In this document: in pieces, positions 131 to 7,617 of the stretch
Position numbering within the stretch: position 1 is the stretch's first letter
How the letters are laid out: each line of letters opens with the position of its first letter
Assembly: GCA_002297865.1 (NCBI GenBank)
Contig: DBKX01000047.1
Span: 1 to 9,568 of the forward strand
Length of the DNA: 9,568 bases
Direction of reading: 5' to 3'
Origin: Lachnoclostridium sp. UBA739
GTDB taxonomy: Bacteria; Bacillota_A; Clostridia; Lachnospirales; Lachnospiraceae
The notes under the pieces: generated by a model
The model's input: the letters and a program-made list of their open reading frames with translations, nothing else
Told to the model about the DNA's origin: nothing
Databases searched by the model: none
Made by a program: the position numbers and the translations under genes

Positions 131-1300
131 TTATGTAGCTTTATAAGTTAAATGCTCAATTTCTAATTTATATAGAACTCTAGTAAGTTTTTTTGCAACA
201 TGTGATACCGCAACAGTATAAGGTTTTCCTTCTGCTAGCTTTTTTTGCATGAAAGCTTTAAAGGTATTATCCCAGTTTGCGACATTTTTAGCTGCAGTAT
301 AAAGGGCGTAGCGTAAGTATTTGGAACCGCGTTTTACCATCTTCGCATGTGTCGAAGTATGTTGACCTGACTGATAGATGGATGGTTCCATGCCTGCAAA
401 TGCAAGTATTTTTCCGGCATTTGAAAATTTAGAGAAGTCTCCAATTTCTGCATGAAGCATTGCAGCGGTAATGTATGAAATTCCGGGTATATTGACAAAT
501 GGGGAATCAATTTCCTTCATGATTTCCTTAATGCGCTGTTCAACCATGCTAATCTGTTCTGTAAGAAGTAAAATACGTGCAATAGTATGACGAAGTTCAA
601 GAGTCTGGATACAGTCACTGCATCCAATAGAATTTCTGGCAGCATCGCGGATTTCAATTGCTTTGGAGCGGGAATAGTGTCCTTTGGAATACTTGCTTAA
701 AAGGTTAGTAAGATGAGTAAGGTGAGCATTGGCCAAAGAGGCTGTATCGGGGTATTCATTCATTAAATGGTAGACAGAATTCACCTGGAGCTCATGTACG
801 ATGCCCTGCAATTCAGGAAAGATAATATTCATGAGTCTGGTAAAAGAGATTTTTAGTTTGGAATTATCTTTTACAAGAGTAAATCGGTATCTGGTTAGTG
901 ACTTAAGTTCCTTTTCATGGTATGATATAGGAACATAGGACGTTAGCGTCTGTGTCATGAGCATTGATACGATTGATTGGGCATCTGCCTTATCCGTTTT
1001 TGTCTTTCTAAAGCTTAGACTTTTCTTGTAAAGACAGGTATGTAACGGATTGATGATAAAAATGTGGAGATTTTTAAAAGTCAAAAAATCAACGAGATTA
1101 TTGCTGTAATGACCAGTAGCTTCCAGTCCTATTTTTATTTCATCAAAATCAGAAGAACAGGACTGGATACGTTCAAAAAGAAGGTTGAAACCAGTCAGAT
1201 TGTTAGGAAATGAAAAAGAAGGATATAGAGTTCGTCCTTCAGAGTTTTTAATAATACAATCATGTTTGTCCTTTGCGACATCAATACCAACGTAAATCAT
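131..1300 (-). CDS. IS110 family transposase (DEDD bridge-RNA-guided recombinase)
   Basis: A 389-residue recombinase that would move the surrounding IS as a circular intermediate. The N-terminal RuvC-like DEDD domain shows Asp7 (GIDVAKDKHD), Glu60 (IGLEATGHY) and Asp103/Asp106 (KTDKADAQS). A helical and coiled middle (about 130-265) is followed by the C-terminal Tnp domain. This starts at PGISYITAAMLHAEIGDF (272 onward) and contains AGMEPSIYQSGQ, whose Ser-Gly (Ser311) is the likely serine nucleophile by family analogy. The ATG is preceded by AAGGAGC at normal spacing, which fixes the start. Length is normal (IS110 proteins are roughly 300-450 residues) and the frame is intact, so the copy may be active. 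The predicted bridge RNA lies just upstream on the same strand, which is the IS110-group rather than the IS1111-group arrangement. Confidence 0.95.
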   Translation of the reverse strand: MIYVGIDVAKDKHDCIIKNSEGRTLYPSFSFPNNLTGFNLLFERIQSCSSDFDEIKIGLEATGHYSNNLVDFLTFKNLHIFIINPLHTCLYKKSLSFRKTKTDKADAQSIVSMLMTQTLTSYVPISYHEKELKSLTRYRFTLVKDNSKLKISFTRLMNIIFPELQGIVHELQVNSVYHLMNEYPDTASLANAHLTHLTNLLSKYSKGHYSRSKAIEIRDAARNSIGCSDCIQTLELRHTIARILLLTEQISMVEQRIKEIMKEIDSPFVNIPGISYITAAMLHAEIGDFSKFSNAGKILAFAGMEPSIYQSGQHTSTHAKMVKRGSKYLRYALYTAAKNVANWDNTFKAFMQKKLAEGKPYTVAVSHVAKKLTRVLYKLEIEHLTYKAT

Positions 1301-1525: not shown

Positions 1526-1590
1526 AATATTAATTTAACATACGAGGAAAGTCCTCTGGGAGTCCTTCCCTATAAGTTAAAAAGAACCTA

Positions 1591-1735
1591 AAAAACAGGG
1601 GCTGGATGCACACGAACGGGTAAGAAAGTTAATCGCTAAAGAACAGCGACACCCGTTCGGTGCGGCAAAGTGCCTTCTTCCTCAAGATTGAGGGGCAGGG
1701 GAGTTGATTTGTGGAAGACACTTTGTTCCGTAATT
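1591..1735. other. Structured noncoding region of unknown class
   Basis: The roughly 330 bases between the IS and the next gene hold no convincing long ORF but have strong secondary structure. A long helix pairs GCAC-A-CGAACGGGT (1608-1621) with ACCCGTTCG-GTGC (1651-1663). It encloses a small hairpin TCGCT/AGCGA (1633-1649). A second helix pairs CAAAGTG (1666-1672) with CACTTTG (1719-1725), with CTTC/GAAG continuing it, and encloses the hairpin CCTCA-AGAT-TGAGG (1680-1693). This could be a noncoding RNA, a leader of the downstream membrane genes, or the decayed end of another mobile element. It does not match any riboswitch, tmRNA, 6S, SRP or RNase P pattern that I can recall. The strand is undetermined. 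Confidence 0.4.
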
Positions 1736-1758
1736 TAAGTGGCTTGAATGTGAGAAAC

Positions 1759-1788
1759 TTACACTTTTTTATTACATTATGGTATGAT
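1759..1788 (+). promoter_or_regulatory. Possible promoter for the glsB-rhomboid genes
   Basis: TTACAC (1759-1764) and TATGAT (1783-1788) are separated by 18 bases, about 90 bases before the first annotated membrane-protein gene. Both boxes deviate from consensus, so this is a tentative call. Confidence 0.3.
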
Positions 1789-1803
1789 AAAGAGGAATAT
1801 ATA

Positions 1804-1857
1804 ATGAAATTGATTAAAACATTACGAGAAAGGAAAAATTTACATAAGCGTAATTAG
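1804..1857 (+). CDS. Possible 17-residue leader ORF
   Basis: ATG with an upstream AAGAGG at about 8 bases, coding for the very basic peptide MKLIKTLRERKNLHKRN. It ends 21 bases before the start of the GlsB-like gene. It could be a leader peptide, a remnant of a longer gene (the start resembles the first helix of many HTH proteins), or chance. No function is proposed. Confidence 0.25.
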   Translation: MKLIKTLRERKNLHKRN

Positions 1858-1878
1858 TAGAAAAAGGAGGATACAATC

Positions 1879-2115
1879 ATGCATTTAATTAGTAATTTAG
1901 TCGTAGGTGGCCTATCAGGATGGATAGCAGGTAATATTATGAATAAGAAAGGTGGTCTGTTACGAAACATCATTCTTGGCATTTTAGGAGGAATTGTAGG
2001 AGGTATCGTACTTGGACTTATTGGAATATCAGGACATGGATTGATTGGCAATATGATAGTGTCTGTAGTGGGTGCCTGTATCTTGATATTTGGCTGCAAT
2101 GTAATCACGAAATAG
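1879..2115 (+). CDS. GlsB/YeaQ/YmgE family membrane protein
   Basis: A 78-residue, glycine-rich, hydrophobic protein with three predicted membrane segments (about residues 5-20, 28-48, 55-75). The pattern GGLSGWIAGNIM, then GLLRNIILGILGGIVGGIV, matches the GlsB/YeaQ/YmgE (transglycosylase-associated) family. These small envelope proteins are linked to general stress in several bacteria, but their biochemical role is unknown. The start is set by AGGAGG at 1865-1870, eight bases before the ATG. The next gene begins 13 bases after its stop, so the two probably form an operon. Confidence 0.85.
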   Translation: MHLISNLVVGGLSGWIAGNIMNKKGGLLRNIILGILGGIVGGIVLGLIGISGHGLIGNMIVSVVGACILIFGCNVITK

Positions 2116-2128
2116 GATTGGAGGGACT

Positions 2129-2707
2129 ATGAATTTTCACAGACTAAAAATTACCTATAATTCACCCGTTATTATAGGGTTTACAGGAATCTGTCTGGTT
2201 TCACTATTGCTCAATGTGTTTACCAATGGAATGTCCAATGCCATGTTATTCAGCGTATACCGTTCTTCCTTGTCGGAACCACTAACGTACCTTCGATTCG
2301 TAGGACATGTGTTTGGTCATGCCAATTGGGAGCATTTTATAGGGAATATTATGTTAATTCTTGTTGTAGGACCATTGCTTGAAGAAAAATATGGTTCAGG
2401 ACCTATTGTCTTTGTTATTATTACAACAGCTTTAGTGACTGGAATTGTACACTGGCTGCTTTTCCCTGGCACAATGCTTTTAGGGGCGAGTGGTGTGGTG
2501 TTTGCTTTTATTCTGCTGTCTTCTTTTACCAGTATGAAGGAAGGAGAAATTCCTCTGACAGTCATTCTGGTAGCATGTATTTATATTGGAGAACAGATAT
2601 ACCAAGGAATTATGATAAAAGATAATATCTCGAATCTGACACATATTCTAGGAGGAATTGTAGGTGCGTGTTTTGGAAGTGGATTAAATCACAGAAAAAG
2701 TATGTAG
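2129..2707 (+). CDS. Rhomboid family intramembrane serine protease
   Basis: A 192-residue polytopic membrane protein with about six hydrophobic segments. It has the rhomboid signatures in order: GHVFGHANWEHFIGN (His60, His64, His69, Asn73 of the oxyanion region), GASG with catalytic Ser121 (119-122), and catalytic His172 in NLTHILGG of the last helix. The catalytic dyad is therefore intact. Rhomboids cleave substrates within or next to the membrane; the substrate cannot be told from sequence. GGAGGG lies just before the ATG, and the gene follows the GlsB-like gene by 13 bases. The protein is short and lacks extra cytoplasmic domains, close to the minimal GlpG-like core. Confidence 0.9.
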   Translation: MNFHRLKITYNSPVIIGFTGICLVSLLLNVFTNGMSNAMLFSVYRSSLSEPLTYLRFVGHVFGHANWEHFIGNIMLILVVGPLLEEKYGSGPIVFVIITTALVTGIVHWLLFPGTMLLGASGVVFAFILLSSFTSMKEGEIPLTVILVACIYIGEQIYQGIMIKDNISNLTHILGGIVGACFGSGLNHRKSM

Positions 2708-2792
2708 GAGCTTGTATGTATTTCGTATTGACTAAATACTCCCTTTCATTTAAAATATACACCATTGAACGAATTAGAGAGGATAATGTTTT

Positions 2793-2969
2793 ATGAGTCG
2801 CAACATTACAGATATAGAGAATTATAGCAATCAGACAGAAAGACAGTTACATTTTATTGAACTTTGTAAGAAATGGGCAGCTGCACAACAGGAGAAATTA
2901 GGACGTCCACTTACAGCTTGTGTGAATACTTTTGGTTGTCAGATGAACACTGTTACCATGATTCTATAA
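2793..2969 (+). pseudogene. miaB: miaB, 5' fragment cut by an integrated element
   Basis: The ORF starts at ATG 2793 after AGAGAGG and reads 58 codons before a stop. Its last recognisable stretch is TACVNTFGCQMN, the hallmark N-terminal motif of MiaB, the radical-SAM enzyme that adds the 2-methylthio group to i6A37 of tRNAs. In MiaB this motif is normally followed by ARDSE and some 400 more residues, with the methylthiotransferase, radical-SAM and TRAM domains. Here family identity ends after Asn52 (base 2948), and six unrelated codons (TVTMIL) lead to TAA. The protein must be inactive: the first iron-sulfur ligand cysteine (Cys49) is present but all others are missing. The rest of miaB presumably lies at the far end of the element, outside this window. 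Confidence 0.88.
2937..2962. other. Probable attachment site junction (att half-site in miaB)
   Basis: Coding identity to miaB ends at about 2948 within TGTCAGATGAAC. Downstream DNA is noncoding for about 90 bases and then reaches the 3' end of a large serine recombinase gene. An integrase next to the junction with a host gene is the classical layout of a site-specific element. The exact two-base crossover cannot be read without the other end. Confidence 0.7.
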
Positions 2970-2995
2970 AGCTTGATTTTGCGACATTTCTTAAA

Positions 2996-3040
2996 AATAG
3001 AACAGGACAACTTGATGAAATTTAGCTGTCCTGTTCTATT
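2996..3040 (-). terminator. Intrinsic terminator of the recombinase gene
   Basis: A perfect 14-base inverted repeat (AATAGAACAGGACA at 2996-3009, TGTCCTGTTCTATT at 3027-3040) with a 17-base loop. On the minus strand it is followed by a T-rich stretch (TTTTTAAG). It touches the stop codon of the recombinase gene. It could also stop plus-strand transcription coming from the broken miaB. Confidence 0.8.
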
Positions 3041-4722
3041 TATTCTTTATATATAAATTCATGTACTAATCCATTTTTGAATGTAATTACAGAAGGCATA
3101 GATTTTAAAATCACAATATCATCAACTATTGCCCTAATAAAATCTTTTAGAACCTTATTATCAATCGTAAGCATAAGTTCTTTAAAATTTACTTCACCAG
3201 ACTTTAGTTTCTGAGTTAATATAAATGACGAAGCTGAAGAAATGAAAGCAGATTCATCTATTGAAGCATTAAAAATGTCATCTTCAAGCTCGGCTATTTT
3301 ATTCTTAGCAGCTATAAGATTAACTTCCAAATCTCTCTTTGTTGATAGATATTCTTCCTCACTCATAGAATCGTCATCAAAAAGGTATGCTTTTTTCAAT
3401 CTATCAAGTGCTCTTGTATACTTTTCAACTTCTGTACGTTTTTTGTCAAGAAGAGAAGAGCTTTCGTGGTTGGACTTGATTGTGCTAGTAGCTTGGTAAG
3501 CTACATTATAGGAACGTCCTTTTAACAAATTGAAGATTTCATTTAAAGTTGAGCTAGATATATAAGCAACATTTTTAAACTCCTTACCATCGAGTAATAT
3601 ATTTTCAAGTTCCTTCACATCTAATAACGTATTACGCTTTGAATAAGCTGAAAGAAAATTTACAATATATTTAAAAATAAAAGGACCTATTCGGACATCA
3701 GAAGCTGGTTTGGCAGAACAAACAGTTTTCCTTGCCCGTGATGCACAACGGTATTGAGATGGCCAAAATCCATCAGCACGCTTATCATCTTTGCCAGCAT
3801 GCATGTTAGAACCACATTCACCACACGTACAGATTCCACCAAATATATGAATGTGTTTCTTCATGGGTTCGAATCCAGGTAGATTCTTTCCAGTAGCGTT
3901 TTTGTCCATTGCAATATTACAACGTGCCCACTGTTCTTTTGAGATTATAGCAGGATGATTATCTTCTCTTACAATCCATTCTTCCTCTGGGCGTATTTTC
4001 CCATGTGGAGAATTCCTGTAATTATATCTATACGTACCTTTGTAAAAAGGATTCCTGATAATATCAGCAACTGTTTTGGTTGTCCATTCTCCATTTCTCT
4101 TTGTACGAATGCCATTATCATTCAGATACCGTGTGATGATGGTACTAGAATGGCACTCATCGTACATGTTAAATATAAGTTCAACAGTTTTTCTTTCGAT
4201 TTCATCAGGAGAAGGGAATTTCGTTTCTTCATCCCAATGATATCCAAGCGGCATATTTGCGCCATTCCATAGACCAGCAGATGCTCTGTCAAGCATTATA
4301 TCGGTAACACGTTCGGATGTAAGTTTACGTTCAAGCTCGGCAAATACAAGAATAATCTTTAAAACAGCTTCACCGATTGCAGAACTGGTATCGAATTGCT
4401 CATTAAGAGAAATAAAAGTAACTCTATGCTCTCTGAACTTATCATACATAAGAGAGAAATCAACAAGATTCCTGGAAATACGATCTATCTTATATACGAT
4501 AACGTGAGATATTTCATCAGATTCTATTTTATTCATCATTCTTTGAAAAGCTGGTCTATCTGTATTTTTGCCAGATCTACCAGCATCCTCGAAAATTTCG
4601 AGATTATCAAGATGCAAGACATGCTTACAGTAGTTCTTTAGTTCTTTTCTCTGGTGTGGAAGGCTGTCTTTATCAATTTGATGTCCAGTAGAGACACGAA
4701 CATATAGCGCAGCTTTTTTCAA
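3040..4722 (-). CDS. Large serine recombinase (integrase)
   Basis: A 560-residue site-specific recombinase that would integrate and excise the element. The resolvase catalytic domain occupies about residues 1-145, with the nucleophile Ser11 in YVRVSTGHQ, then EDAGRSGKNTDRPAF and the conserved arginines of KIDRISRN. A Recombinase domain follows (about 155-270; PLGY, then IIRNPFYKGTY). A zinc ribbon lies at about 295-337 (Cys298, Cys300, Cys303, Cys326, Cys335). A charged coiled-coil stretch (about 425-480) precedes the C-terminal tail. The size and domain order are those of phage and ICE integrases. The start is TTG at 4722, chosen because AGGAGA lies nine bases upstream and no in-frame ATG fits. 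Its 3' end is about 90 bases from the miaB junction, so it is the likely agent of that insertion. Confidence 0.95.
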   Translation of the reverse strand: MKKAALYVRVSTGHQIDKDSLPHQRKELKNYCKHVLHLDNLEIFEDAGRSGKNTDRPAFQRMMNKIESDEISHVIVYKIDRISRNLVDFSLMYDKFREHRVTFISLNEQFDTSSAIGEAVLKIILVFAELERKLTSERVTDIMLDRASAGLWNGANMPLGYHWDEETKFPSPDEIERKTVELIFNMYDECHSSTIITRYLNDNGIRTKRNGEWTTKTVADIIRNPFYKGTYRYNYRNSPHGKIRPEEEWIVREDNHPAIISKEQWARCNIAMDKNATGKNLPGFEPMKKHIHIFGGICTCGECGSNMHAGKDDKRADGFWPSQYRCASRARKTVCSAKPASDVRIGPFIFKYIVNFLSAYSKRNTLLDVKELENILLDGKEFKNVAYISSSTLNEIFNLLKGRSYNVAYQATSTIKSNHESSSLLDKKRTEVEKYTRALDRLKKAYLFDDDSMSEEEYLSTKRDLEVNLIAAKNKIAELEDDIFNASIDESAFISSASSFILTQKLKSGEVNFKELMLTIDNKVLKDFIRAIVDDIVILKSMPSVITFKNGLVHEFIYKE

Positions 4723-4796: not shown

Positions 4797-5192
4797 CTAT
4801 TTGTCCTGTATTTTCATAATCAGGATTTCCTGCAGTGCATGTGAAAAGTTTATGCCTTTTTCAATTGCTTCTTCATTCAGCCATTGTGGAATGCTTAAAG
4901 TTTTTTTTACGGATCTGCTGTTAGTACGTTTCCTGTATGCTTGCATATCAAATTCGATTACAACAAGAAATCCATCTTCGACAGCTATTTTATCTGCCTG
5001 GCTCGGTTCTGGAATGACTTGGTTTTCATCGACACGGGATGCAAGAGAAAGACCTAATGCATCCACAGCCATTTCGTATGCCTGCTCCATGTTATCACCT
5101 TCAGTAAGACATTCAGGAAGATCGGGAAAGCTGACCCAGAAACCGCCTTCTTCTGCTTTGTGGAAAATAGCTGGATAAAATAATTTATTCAT
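4797..5192 (-). CDS. hicB: HicB family antitoxin
   Basis: A 131-residue antitoxin that would bind and block HicA and repress the operon. The N-terminal HicB fold (about 4-50) shows FYPAIFHKAEEGGFWVSFPDLPECLTEGDNMEQAYEMA in overlapping parts: an F/Y-PA entry, the PDLPEC turn and the following helix. The C-terminal part (KKTLSIPQWLNEEAIEKG, then FSHALQEIL) looks like a ribbon-helix-helix DNA-binding domain, as in one HicB subgroup. AAGGAGG lies just upstream of the ATG. The gene follows hicA by 23 bases on the same strand, the usual toxin-first order. Confidence 0.9.
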   Translation of the reverse strand: MNKLFYPAIFHKAEEGGFWVSFPDLPECLTEGDNMEQAYEMAVDALGLSLASRVDENQVIPEPSQADKIAVEDGFLVVIEFDMQAYRKRTNSRSVKKTLSIPQWLNEEAIEKGINFSHALQEILIMKIQDK

Positions 5193-5207
5193 GCCATACC
5201 TCCTTGT

Positions 5208-5231
5208 GGCAGGGCTTATTTTAGCCCTGCC
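5208..5231 (-). promoter_or_regulatory. Hairpin over the hicA stop, before the hicB RBS
   Basis: A perfect nine-base stem (GGCAGGGCT at 5208-5216, AGCCCTGCC at 5223-5231) with a six-base loop covers the hicA stop codon and ends a few bases before the hicB AAGGAGG. There is no T-run, so it does not look like a terminator. It may protect or tune the toxin-antitoxin mRNA; this is an inference. Confidence 0.6.
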
Positions 5232-5404
5232 TGTTTCAATATTGCCTGCTCCAAACCTCTTTTTAATGGCTTGGAATGATAAGGAACAATGGTTTGAGCA
5301 TTTGTATTAGTATTTTTCATTTTAACATGAGAGCCATTTTGGCTAACAATTTCAAAACCATTTTTCTTGAGATGTTTAATCATCTCTCGTGATGTCATTG
5401 GCAT
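5216..5404 (-). CDS. hicA: HicA family toxin (mRNA interferase)
   Basis: A 62-residue toxin with the double-stranded RNA-binding-like HicA fold: TSREMIKHLKKNGFEIVSQ, then the catalytic-histidine motif GSHVKM, then TIVPYHSKPLKRGLEQAILKQAG. HicA proteins cut mRNA and stop translation. The start at 5404 (MPMTSRE) was preferred over a farther upstream ATG at 5428 because AAAGGAGA precedes it at good spacing and the family begins near this methionine. It is the first gene of the operon, 30 bases from its -10 box. Confidence 0.92.
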   Translation of the reverse strand: MPMTSREMIKHLKKNGFEIVSQNGSHVKMKNTNTNAQTIVPYHSKPLKRGLEQAILKQAGLK

Positions 5405-5433
5405 ATATGTTTCTCCTTTCCTTATCATGTTAC

Positions 5434-5532: not shown

Positions 5533-5561
5533 TACACAATTTAAAAATTAAGTGTTATATT
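5533..5561 (+). promoter_or_regulatory. Promoter of a short transcript, twin of the LytTR promoter
   Basis: TACACA (5533-5538), a 17-base spacer and TATATT (5556-5561). The same boxes with the same spacing occur before the LytTR receptor gene at 6242-6270. The following leader also matches it (AGAGGG, then AAGGAGTAGA, GGGGA, ATGAAC). Transcription from here would meet a strong terminator at 5653-5681, giving an RNA of about 115 bases. Confidence 0.5.
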
Positions 5562-5605
5562 TTAAGAGAGGGAAACAGAATATTGATAAGGAGTAGAAGG
5601 GGAGA

Positions 5606-5629
5606 ATGAACTTAACTAACATAATTTAA
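5606..5629 (+). pseudogene. Seven-codon ORF, apparent relic of a LytTR gene start
   Basis: ATG after AAGGAGTAGAAGGGGA, coding MNLTNII and then TAA. The later LytTR receptor begins MNIINVV after a nearly identical leader. It may be a decayed duplicate of that gene's 5' end or a functional micro-ORF or leader of a small RNA. No more of the receptor gene can be seen after it. Confidence 0.4.
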
Positions 5630-5652
5630 ATGAAGAAATTGTATAGAGCAGA

Positions 5653-5681
5653 AAAGCGGGTAATCATATTTGACCCGCTTT
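5653..5681. terminator. Bidirectional terminator
   Basis: AAAGCGGGT (5653-5661) pairs with ACCCGCTTT (5673-5681), nine pairs with an 11-base loop and A/T runs on both sides. On the minus strand it follows the TM2 gene by about 20 bases. On the plus strand it ends the short transcript starting near 5568. Confidence 0.8.
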
Positions 5682-5703
5682 CTTTGTATCTGGTTACACA
5701 TAC

Positions 5704-6153
5704 TCACCAATTTTTTATGAACATGCCGTATTTATCTCTAAACGAACCAATTATAATTAATATAAAATCAAATAATACTCCAAATCCAAAAAGACCAAGA
5801 GTTAGTATGTATATTATTCCTGTTCCAATTTTACCAGCATAAAACCTGTGGATTCCGAAGAATCCAAGAAATATGCATAATAGCAGAGAAACTAATCTGC
5901 TTTTGGGACTTATCATTTGGTTTACTGAATTAATTTGATTAACAGAACTAACAGAATTAGCAATATTATTGTTATTAATATTAATTGTTTGTGGTGATTT
6001 TGAAAGTTTTTCTTGCTCTGAAAAAGCTTTTCCTATACATGATTTGCAATAATTTTTTCCGTCAGCTTCAACAAGGCAATCATCACAAAAGAATTTTCCA
6101 CAAGATACACACACACCAGCTGCTTGGGTATTAGTATGATTTACACAATACAT
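5704..6153 (-). CDS. B-box-like zinc finger and TM2 domain membrane protein
   Basis: 149 residues. The N-terminus has a zinc-binding pattern C3-x2-H6, C15-x2-C18, C23-x2-C26, C36-x2-C39, like the B-box-type fingers often found at the start of bacterial membrane proteins. A low-complexity Asn/Ser/Ile linker (about 55-80) follows. The TM2 domain (about 84-138) has two hydrophobic helices around GIHRFYAGKIGTG and GVLFDFI. The function of TM2 proteins in bacteria is not established. The start at 6153 is chosen because GGAGGGAG lies directly upstream; a farther ATG would add 24 unrelated hydrophobic residues without a good RBS. The gene is divergent from the LytTR receptor gene and lies between the two twin promoters. 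Confidence 0.82.
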   Translation of the reverse strand: MYCVNHTNTQAAGVCVSCGKFFCDDCLVEADGKNYCKSCIGKAFSEQEKLSKSPQTININNNNIANSVSSVNQINSVNQMISPKSRLVSLLLCIFLGFFGIHRFYAGKIGTGIIYILTLGLFGFGVLFDFILIIIGSFRDKYGMFIKNW

Positions 6154-6241
6154 TTTTTTCTCCCTCCACGTACATTTATTTAGTACATGAATAATAATAC
6201 AACAAAAAATACATAAAAACAACAAATATGGAATAAAAAGC

Positions 6242-6270
6242 TACACATTTTTTCTAATGTATGGTATATT
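6242..6270 (+). promoter_or_regulatory. Promoter of the LytTR receptor-autoinducer unit
   Basis: TACACA (6242-6247) and TATATT (6265-6270), 17 bases apart, about 40 bases before the gene start. The -35 box is weak, which would fit activator dependence. No clear LytTR direct repeat could be picked out by eye. It is twinned with 5533-5561. Confidence 0.5.
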
Positions 6271-6309: not shown

Positions 6310-7443
6310 ATGAACATAATAAATGTAGTGCTAATTTTAGCACTTATTATAGAACCAGTGATATGGATACATGCTGTCTGCTTGAAGTTTGAGAGGAAAT
6401 TTCAAAGACTTTGGCCATACGCAAGTTACATATTACTGGATATACTAATATCATGTATTAATGATTTTACTAAAGTGAATAAAATAATAGGGGATTTGTT
6501 TTTCACATTACTATTTATGGTATACATGATTTTATTTGTTTGTTTTGCATTTAAAGAAAAATTATATATGAAAATTCTATATGCGGGGATATTAATAATT
6601 TTATCACTTGTAAGTGATATTATAGTATTTATAATATTCTCGCTTTTTGGACTTAACACGCAGCAGATGTCAGAGTATGGAATATATAATGCAATGGCAA
6701 CATTGATTTCAAAGATCGTACTTTATATATTGATTATTATTTTAAATAGAAGAAAATTCAGCTTAAATAAATCAACAATAGGGATAATAGGTCTTTTATC
6801 TATAACAGAGCTTCCGTCTGTAGTGCTATTTAAAAATTCAGAGAAAGTAAGTAATTTGTTTTTGATAACATATATGGTAAGCCAAATTGCAGTTGTACTT
6901 CTGATAATGTATTTTAAGAGAGTAATTATGGCAAAGAAATATCAAGCAGACAAGGCTGTAGCAAGAGTAAGTGAATTGGAAGAGCAGACACAGAAAGCAA
7001 TAGCAAGAGCAGCAGAATTGGAAGTACAAACAGAAGAGGCAGCGGCAAGATTGATAGAGCTGGAAAGACAAACAAAGGAAGCAAGGACAAAAGCAATTGA
7101 ATTAGAAAAACAGCTAAACGATAGAAGTGAAATGATAGAAATTATTGAAAATAGAAAAAAAGTCTTAATCAGCATAGAGGATATTATGTATGCTGAGAAA
7201 GTTGATAGAAAGGTAACGATTAAAACTAAGAATAATTTGTATAGAGTAAATAAGTCGATTACATATTTAGAAGAGCAGTTAGGAGAGTCATTTTTAAGAA
7301 TTAATCAAGGTACGCTAGTAAATAAAGAATATATAGAAAGAGCAGGTGGATCCTCTCTTTGCATGAAAAATGGAGAGACATTTCACATACCAAGGGAAAG
7401 AACAAAAGATGTTAAAGATAGTTTAAGAAAGGAGATGATGTAA
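6310..7443 (+). CDS. Membrane-anchored LytTR transcription regulator, AgrC-like sensor part
   Basis: 377 residues in three parts. Residues 1-205 are strongly hydrophobic with six or seven membrane segments (about 4-24, 38-50, 61-81, 86-113, 128-146, 154-173, 182-204), resembling the polytopic sensor half of AgrC-type receptors. Residues 216-271 are a coiled coil of four 14-residue repeats. Residues about 281-374 are a LytTR DNA-binding domain (ISIEDIMYAEKVDRKVTIKT, then FLRINQGTLVNKEYIE). There is no histidine-kinase or receiver domain, so peptide sensing and DNA binding would be joined in one chain; this is inference. AAAGGAG and GAGGGG precede the ATG. The stop overlaps the start of the AgrD-like gene by one base (TAATG), so the two are co-translated. 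It could be autoregulated through its own promoter. Confidence 0.8.
   Translation: MNIINVVLILALIIEPVIWIHAVCLKFERKFQRLWPYASYILLDILISCINDFTKVNKIIGDLFFTLLFMVYMILFVCFAFKEKLYMKILYAGILIILSLVSDIIVFIIFSLFGLNTQQMSEYGIYNAMATLISKIVLYILIIILNRRKFSLNKSTIGIIGLLSITELPSVVLFKNSEKVSNLFLITYMVSQIAVVLLIMYFKRVIMAKKYQADKAVARVSELEEQTQKAIARAAELEVQTEEAAARLIELERQTKEARTKAIELEKQLNDRSEMIEIIENRKKVLISIEDIMYAEKVDRKVTIKTKNNLYRVNKSITYLEEQLGESFLRINQGTLVNKEYIERAGGSSLCMKNGETFHIPRERTKDVKDSLRKEMM
6955..7122 (+). repeat. Four tandem 42-base repeats coding a coiled coil
   Basis: Four consecutive 14-residue units: AVARVSELEEQTQK, AIARAAELEVQTEE, AAARLIELERQTKE, ARTKAIELEKQLND. Each has the pattern A-x-x-[RK]-x-x-ELE-x-Q, two heptads. 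The DNA units are similar but diverged, so copy number could vary between strains. The repeat sets the distance between the membrane and the DNA-binding domain. Confidence 0.85.
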
Positions 7444-7580
7444 TGAATAAGACAGCAGAAAAGGTTGTTGCAAAATTAGCTTATGCTACTGCGGAAAAAG
7501 AAGCTAATCAAGGATGCCCTTGGTTGTTCTATCAACCAAGACTTCCTGAAAAGGTACAGAAACTAAATAAATTCAAGTAA
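7443..7580 (+). CDS. AgrD-like cyclic lactone autoinducer precursor
   Basis: 45 residues. The N-terminal amphipathic helix (MNKTAEKVVAKLAYATAEKE) is followed by the core GCPWLFYQPRLPEKV and a basic tail. This matches the AgrD pattern: an N-terminal membrane-binding helix, a Cys-started ring, then a conserved Q/E-P-x-x-P-x-x-V/L recognition part. By analogy the ring would be Cys25 to Phe29 (CPWLF) as a thiolactone, with AgrB cleavage before Tyr30. The ATG overlaps the stop of the LytTR gene (TAATG), with AAAGGAGA seven bases upstream inside that gene. No AgrB protease or AgrC kinase is found nearby; processing would need an AgrB encoded elsewhere. An intrinsic terminator follows directly. Confidence 0.85.
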   Translation: MNKTAEKVVAKLAYATAEKEANQGCPWLFYQPRLPEKVQKLNKFK

Positions 7581-7581
7581 T

Positions 7582-7617
7582 AAAATAGCCTGTGTTCAGT
7601 GGAATACAGGCTATTTT
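7582..7617 (+). terminator. Terminator of the LytTR-autoinducer operon
   Basis: A 12-base perfect stem, AAAATAGCCTGT (7582-7593) with ACAGGCTATTTT (7606-7617), 12-base loop, with the T-run inside the 3' arm. It starts right after the stop codon of the AgrD-like gene. Confidence 0.9.

Follow-up and report, generated by a model that had tools for sequence, protein, structure and literature searches.

The window analysed here (the whole stretch of DNA, 9,568 bases) carries two overlapping genes that encode a membrane protein fused to a DNA-binding domain and an AgrD-family peptide precursor. This unit is made up of the following features:

6242 to 6270, forward strand: probable operon promoter (TACACA-17-TATATT, with TG before the second hexamer; 9/12)
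6310 to 7443, forward strand: fused receptor ORF (377 amino acids; seven hydrophobic segments in residues ~1-206, coil in ~207-275, LytTR in 284-372)
6310 to 6924, forward strand: putative AgrC-type sensor domain of the receptor (residues 1 to ~205; profile match to the AgrC of locus L022, shuffles, and the motif K88-x14-D103)
7159 to 7425, forward strand: LytTR DNA-binding domain of the receptor (residues 284-372; PF04397, E 9.7e-17; Foldseek)
7443 to 7580, forward strand: AgrD-family peptide precursor ORF (45 amino acids; TIGR04223 and an independent AgrD profile)
7582 to 7617, forward strand: hairpin, probable end of the two-gene transcript (16-bp arms, 94% complementary)

The final A of the receptor stop codon TAA is also the first base of the peptide gene's ATG (TAATG, 7441-7445), and AAAGGAG lies directly upstream of the peptide start. 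The overlap of the two genes and the hairpin that follows them (-21.8 kcal/mol, z -6.7) point to a probable operon of two genes; the coordinates and the TAATG overlap that the initial annotation had given for the receptor and a 45-residue AgrD-like ORF thus hold. Such an overlap suggests that receptor and agrD belong together as cognates, as their counterparts do at classical agr loci. Sites of the type found at 6242 occur in the region about as often as expected (15 found versus 16.0 expected), and this promoter is therefore weak when taken alone.

The receptor combines a polytopic membrane part and a LytTR domain in one protein. LytTR is the sole Pfam domain above the cut-off, and the predicted domain resembles solved LytTR domains including that of AgrA (Foldseek, TM-score by target up to 0.83). 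No receiver, GHKL or MHYT domain is listed by Pfam at E values up to 1, the weaker matches lying mainly within the coil. A match to the NCBIfam model of the RegB histidine kinase spans the last segments and the coil, and was taken as chance (E 0.15, 10.3 bits versus a cut-off of 570). The coil shows heptad periodicity at 3.5 residues, and the predicted model of the receptor has a single helix from residue 181 to 270. These data agree with the initial reading of the protein as a polytopic N-terminus, coil and LytTR domain in one chain that lacks both kinase and receiver. A structure model of the sensor alone was of fair quality (pLDDT 72, pTM 0.63), and a fold search with it gave no significant match and no AgrC membrane structure among the matches.

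This architecture is shared by a small family. The window protein and six relatives were found among 5.8 billion proteins, and a search with a sensor-only profile added three more, giving ten clusters (window plus nine). In all ten, PF04397 is the only domain marked; they align over their full length, with the window protein 40-83% identical to the other nine, and display the same sensor-coil-LytTR layout. The match list of the sensor-profile search, which scored only the 7,995 candidates with shared short words, ends at E 5e-62, with nothing more up to the limit of E 10. Seven hydrophobic segments are found at the N-terminus in 10/10 members, and the positive-inside rule predicts an N-out/C-in orientation in every one of them (17-21 basic residues on the C-terminal side versus 1-6). 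Invariant positions include W19, K84, K88, D103, P169 and Q192 in the sensor and R300, Q333, G334 and R362 in the LytTR domain. The coil differs in length from that of the window protein by -20 to +5 residues in 4/9 relatives; these differences are not multiples of seven and therefore argue against a strict rigid-rotation relay.

Searches of nucleotide collections were nearly empty. In the genome collection, scans with the single protein and with a 7-row profile returned 29 and 124 pattern-bearing stretches, none of which was confirmed as the receptor. The same two queries found no receptor in IMG/VR, where a 10-row profile gave 42 stretches with one confirmed, namely L022, matched through its AgrA. 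The receptor had no match in plasmids, the sensor part alone none in phages, and the window DNA none in either; two phage records that matched the receptor were read as ordinary AgrA-type regulators. Evidence on the relatives thus comes nearly all from a protein database that holds no genome context: the receptor-AgrD pair is seen in the window only, and the nine other fused receptors are known without their gene neighbours.

The peptide had been described as AgrD-like with a CPWLFYQPRLP core, and two models bear this out. The 45-residue ORF passes the NCBI AgrD model TIGR04223 (34.7 bits, cut-off 19), and an independent profile built from eight other AgrDs, seven of them adjoining an agrB, gives it 46 bits, with 9.9 bits for the next frame (264 small window frames). 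When aligned with the eight reference AgrDs, GCPWLFYQPRLP shows the conserved Cys, a Gln (mostly Gln-Pro) 5-7 residues further on, and a downstream Pro. The predicted ring is CPWLF, followed by YQPRLP; its end was placed by this alignment and by what we take to be the AgrB cleavage site. Cys, YQP and LP are invariant between the window peptide and two other AgrD clusters, which at 96% and 87% identity are too close for this to be telling. Reference AgrDs were drawn from weak matches in tblastn searches with the window peptide (four phage records, best E 0.09, and seven plasmid records, best E 0.3); 7/11 records were used (L005-L011), and H6 and H7 (chance, archaeal), H11 and H12 were omitted.

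A scan of IMG/VR for C-x4-YQP[KR]x-P-[ED] returned 53 stretches, of which 38 belong to one phage protein family, 14 are chance frames and a single one is an AgrD (L038, on the contig of L022). As most occurrences are not AgrDs, the motif alone is insufficient to call one, and with 1/53 stretches real we rejected the scan as a way to find them; the sole match of an earlier motif scan (L004) was also due to chance. The phage protein family (L024-L076), presumably exonuclease-like, carries WCDYVVYQPKLPE, which mimics the AgrD motif and accounts for its 38/53 matches.

The surroundings of the unit look like those of a mobile element:

131 to 1300, reverse strand: IS110-family transposase (NF033542, 207 bits)
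2129 to 2707: rhomboid-family protease (PF01694, E 1.5e-19)
2793 to 2969: truncated ORF of 58 residues with CVNTFGCQMN near its end, adjoining the recombinase
3040 to 4722: large serine recombinase of 560 amino acids (phrog_95 integrase, E 4.8e-118)
4797 to 5428, reverse strand: HicB/HicA toxin-antitoxin pair
5704 to 6225, reverse strand: TM2-domain protein, divergent from the receptor operon

The order in the window is recombinase, HicB/HicA, TM2-domain protein, operon and, beyond the operon, a gene for a helix-turn-helix regulator. A gene for a transglycosylase-associated protein lies to the left of the recombinase, and between 1300 and 1870, after the transposase, we recognised no gene and Rfam gave nothing at gathering thresholds. 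The 58-residue ORF, unrecognised by Pfam and NCBIfam, is presumably the start of miaB and a possible integration site. The window thus seems to hold an integrative element's left end, perhaps inserted in miaB, with the other end outside the window, and the serine recombinase and HicBA support the earlier placement of the unit on a mobile element. A perfect TTGACA-17-TATAAT promoter (5462-5434) is found upstream of hicA, and the TM2-domain protein has a B-box-like stretch just below the Pfam cut-off.

Upstream of the operon, the start of the receptor gene seems to have a counterpart:

5533 to 5629, forward strand: twin of the operon promoter, leader, ribosome-binding site and ATGAAC start (alignment to the operon leader)

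The hexamers of this twin (5533-5561) are identical to those of the 6242 promoter and the leader is similar, the alignment of the two scoring 75 versus 60 for the best of 1,000 shuffles. Its reading frame stops after seven codons. The twin may be what remains of another receptor gene, or it may serve as a further target promoter, and the stretch 5533-5690 may correspond to a short transcript or to a relic. A hairpin follows the twin's stop within 5533-5690 (whole-stretch z -1.1). Direct repeats upstream of either promoter were not significant (103 and 198 of 500 shuffles did equally well).

What the membrane part might sense is suggested by a single locus, L022, on the prophage-like IMG/VR contig IMGVR_UViG_2599185221_000009. 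Its genes run in the order agrC-agrA-agrD; the kinase carries a GHKL domain (PF14501, E 2.5e-18) and the peptide scores 32.7 bits with TIGR04223. The cluster occupies 1581-3879 of the contig (L022/L038), between DUF739 genes and apparent phage replication genes. A profile of the ten receptor sensors, from which LytTR had been removed, gave a full-length match to residues 7 to 226 of the L022 kinase (31.0 bits, E 2.6e-10), the next among 24 targets reaching 7.8 bits. The excised L022 sensor scored 34.3 bits, and none of its 3,984 scored shuffles exceeded 9.4 (2,000 were made freely and 2,000 with the hydrophobicity pattern preserved; 16/4,000 were not reported by hmmsearch). Over 265 ORFs of the collected loci, the best score from any contig other than that of L022 was 7.3 bits. 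As L022 had been fetched through the LytTR domain of its AgrA and not through the sensor, the sensor match constitutes an independent test. Only 1/13 AgrC-type kinases has a clear score with the profile, the best of the other 12 being 7.4 bits, and an hhalign comparison of the profile with ten AgrC sensors, L022 not among these, was not significant (1.5% probability).

The motif [KR]-x14-[DE] entering the fourth segment, K88-x14-D103 in the window receptor, is present in 10/10 fused receptors, 7/13 AgrC-type kinases and 0/31 other polytopic ORFs, and no other [KR]/[DE] spacing from 8 to 20 occurs in more than 1/13 kinases; it was noticed by eye before counting, which limits its weight. The 24-target set and the 13 kinases leave out L011 (a near copy of L008), L021 (on the contig of L012), L015, L017 and L019 (partial or of another type), the AgrA of L002, and both AgrA and AgrB of L008-L011. 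L013 and L018 have no GHKL ORF by the motif used, L023 and L038 are on the same contig as L022, and the sensors of L008, L009 and L011 appear shortened at their annotated starts. By profile match, shuffles and motif, the fused receptors and an AgrC-type kinase have related sensors; the proposed likeness of the membrane part to peptide receptors thus stands for the L022 AgrC, one kinase in 13. Since this kinase is encoded beside an AgrA and an AgrD, a split counterpart of the fused receptor exists. In IMG/VR the L022 AgrC is found on its own contig only, and its matches in 44 phage and 20 plasmid records, none over 80% of the query, lie mostly in the kinase half, with H14 and H15 extending into the sensor.

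We read the unit as a compact agr-type circuit with its own AgrD, and give this reading a probability of about 0.58. A receptor that responds to its own AgrD, the putative ligand, is the likeliest reading of the pair. An AgrB encoded outside the window, most likely that of the host, would cleave the AgrD precursor and close the ring CPWLF, and the exported cyclic peptide would bind the seven-helix AgrC-type sensor. The signal would then travel along the last membrane helix and the coil that continues it, reaching the LytTR domains in a receptor dimer at the inner face of the membrane, which would bind promoter DNA directly and involve no phosphorylation. The likeliest targets would be the 6242 promoter itself and its twin at 5533, resulting in positive feedback. 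More tentatively, and at somewhat less than even odds, the receptor could be a phosphorylation-free, one-component thiolactone receptor of an element that carries AgrD and borrows AgrB from its host, carrier cells counting each other and switching element genes from the membrane.

The supply of AgrB is central to this circuit. No window ORF among those scanned matched AgrB (9.6 kb; Pfam, NCBIfam), in keeping with the initial claim that none lies nearby. The 12.3-kb L022 contig likewise has no recognised agrB, judged by its ORF list and a motif only; both systems would thus need an AgrB from outside. In the reference loci L005, L006, L007 and L012 (by motif or eye) and in the annotated plasmid loci L008-L011, agrB is found next to agrD. 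That agrB is not visible in two mobile-looking settings with agrD and a receptor suggests that the enzyme is borrowed from the host, and peptide maturation by a host AgrB seems most likely. The same observation would fit a receptor that mainly detects the cyclic peptide of the host, with the AgrD of the element serving as a competing or blocking peptide made through the host's AgrB; in staphylococcal agr, receptors are commonly inhibited by the AIPs of other agr groups. We regard such eavesdropping or interference as unlikely, the overlap of receptor and agrD suggesting instead a cognate pair.

The window unit shares with the Agr system of Firmicutes (AgrB/AgrD/AgrC/AgrA) an AgrD-family precursor, a sensor related to that of an AgrC-type kinase and a LytTR output. 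It differs in that receptor and output form one chain, with no GHKL kinase or receiver in the receptor, and from a canonical agr locus in that AgrB is absent among the window ORFs. L022/L038 resembles it in the related sensor, LytTR, AgrD and an agrB that is not recognised on the contig, but there the sensor acts through a histidine kinase, and the response regulator is a protein of its own. An agr cassette on a mobile element is also known from phage phiCDHM1 (agr3), described in the accessible part of the source as agrB, agrD and a GHKL agrC with no response regulator (PMC3901668). The LytTR regulatory systems (LRS) of streptococci likewise have a membrane-controlled LytTR output that operates without phosphorylation; they use a separate downstream membrane inhibitor, whereas the window unit is fused and its next gene is the AgrD ORF, followed by the hairpin.

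Polytopic N-termini joined to LytTR in one protein, able to work from the membrane, are known from CoxC of Afipia carboxidovorans, HigX and LytTRs of Bacteroides. In the accessible parts of the respective papers, CoxC is a membrane-bound one-component regulator that senses CO with an MHYT domain (PMC11347149), a domain not listed for the window receptor; HigX is a membrane-bound LytTR regulator, presented with the phrase 'fused LRS' (PMC13384398); polytopic Bacteroides LytTRs are described (PMC6193735); and LytTR proteins are counted among the transmembrane transcription regulators (PMC10269533). None of CoxC, HigX and the Bacteroides LytTRs is described there with a peptide gene. We found no AgrC-type sensor fused to LytTR, and no such protein with an AgrD, among the matches listed from titles and abstract openings of the open-access PMC literature, which holds few subscription journals and no preprints. 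One-component LytTR regulators in the membrane having been described before, what is new here is the type of sensor and the AgrD partner rather than the presence of LytTR on a polytopic protein.

That HigX and CoxC work without peptide ligands, so far as these partial sources tell (PMC13384398, PMC11347149), and that the AgrD pairing is seen in the window only, would agree with a receptor for another cue, such as membrane state or a bacteriocin, with AgrD as a passenger or target gene. We consider this improbable, given the sensor's homology to a kinase whose gene lies two genes away from an agrD, and the translational overlap of the receptor with agrD. Least probable is a variant, compatible with the agr-type circuit, in which peptide binding leads to cleavage and the LytTR part is freed as a soluble factor: a rhomboid-family protease is encoded in the window (2129-2707) and a released domain would tolerate the varying coil lengths, but the recombinase gene separates the rhomboid gene from the operon, and the rhomboid gene is probably chromosomal.

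Agr signalling has so far been viewed as a two-component system. An AgrC-type sensor fused to LytTR in nature would show the perception of a cyclic peptide wired to DNA without phosphotransfer, and would offer a minimal receptor for biochemistry and synthetic sensors. To the known ways in which mobile elements communicate by peptides, it would also add one with no maturation enzyme of its own.
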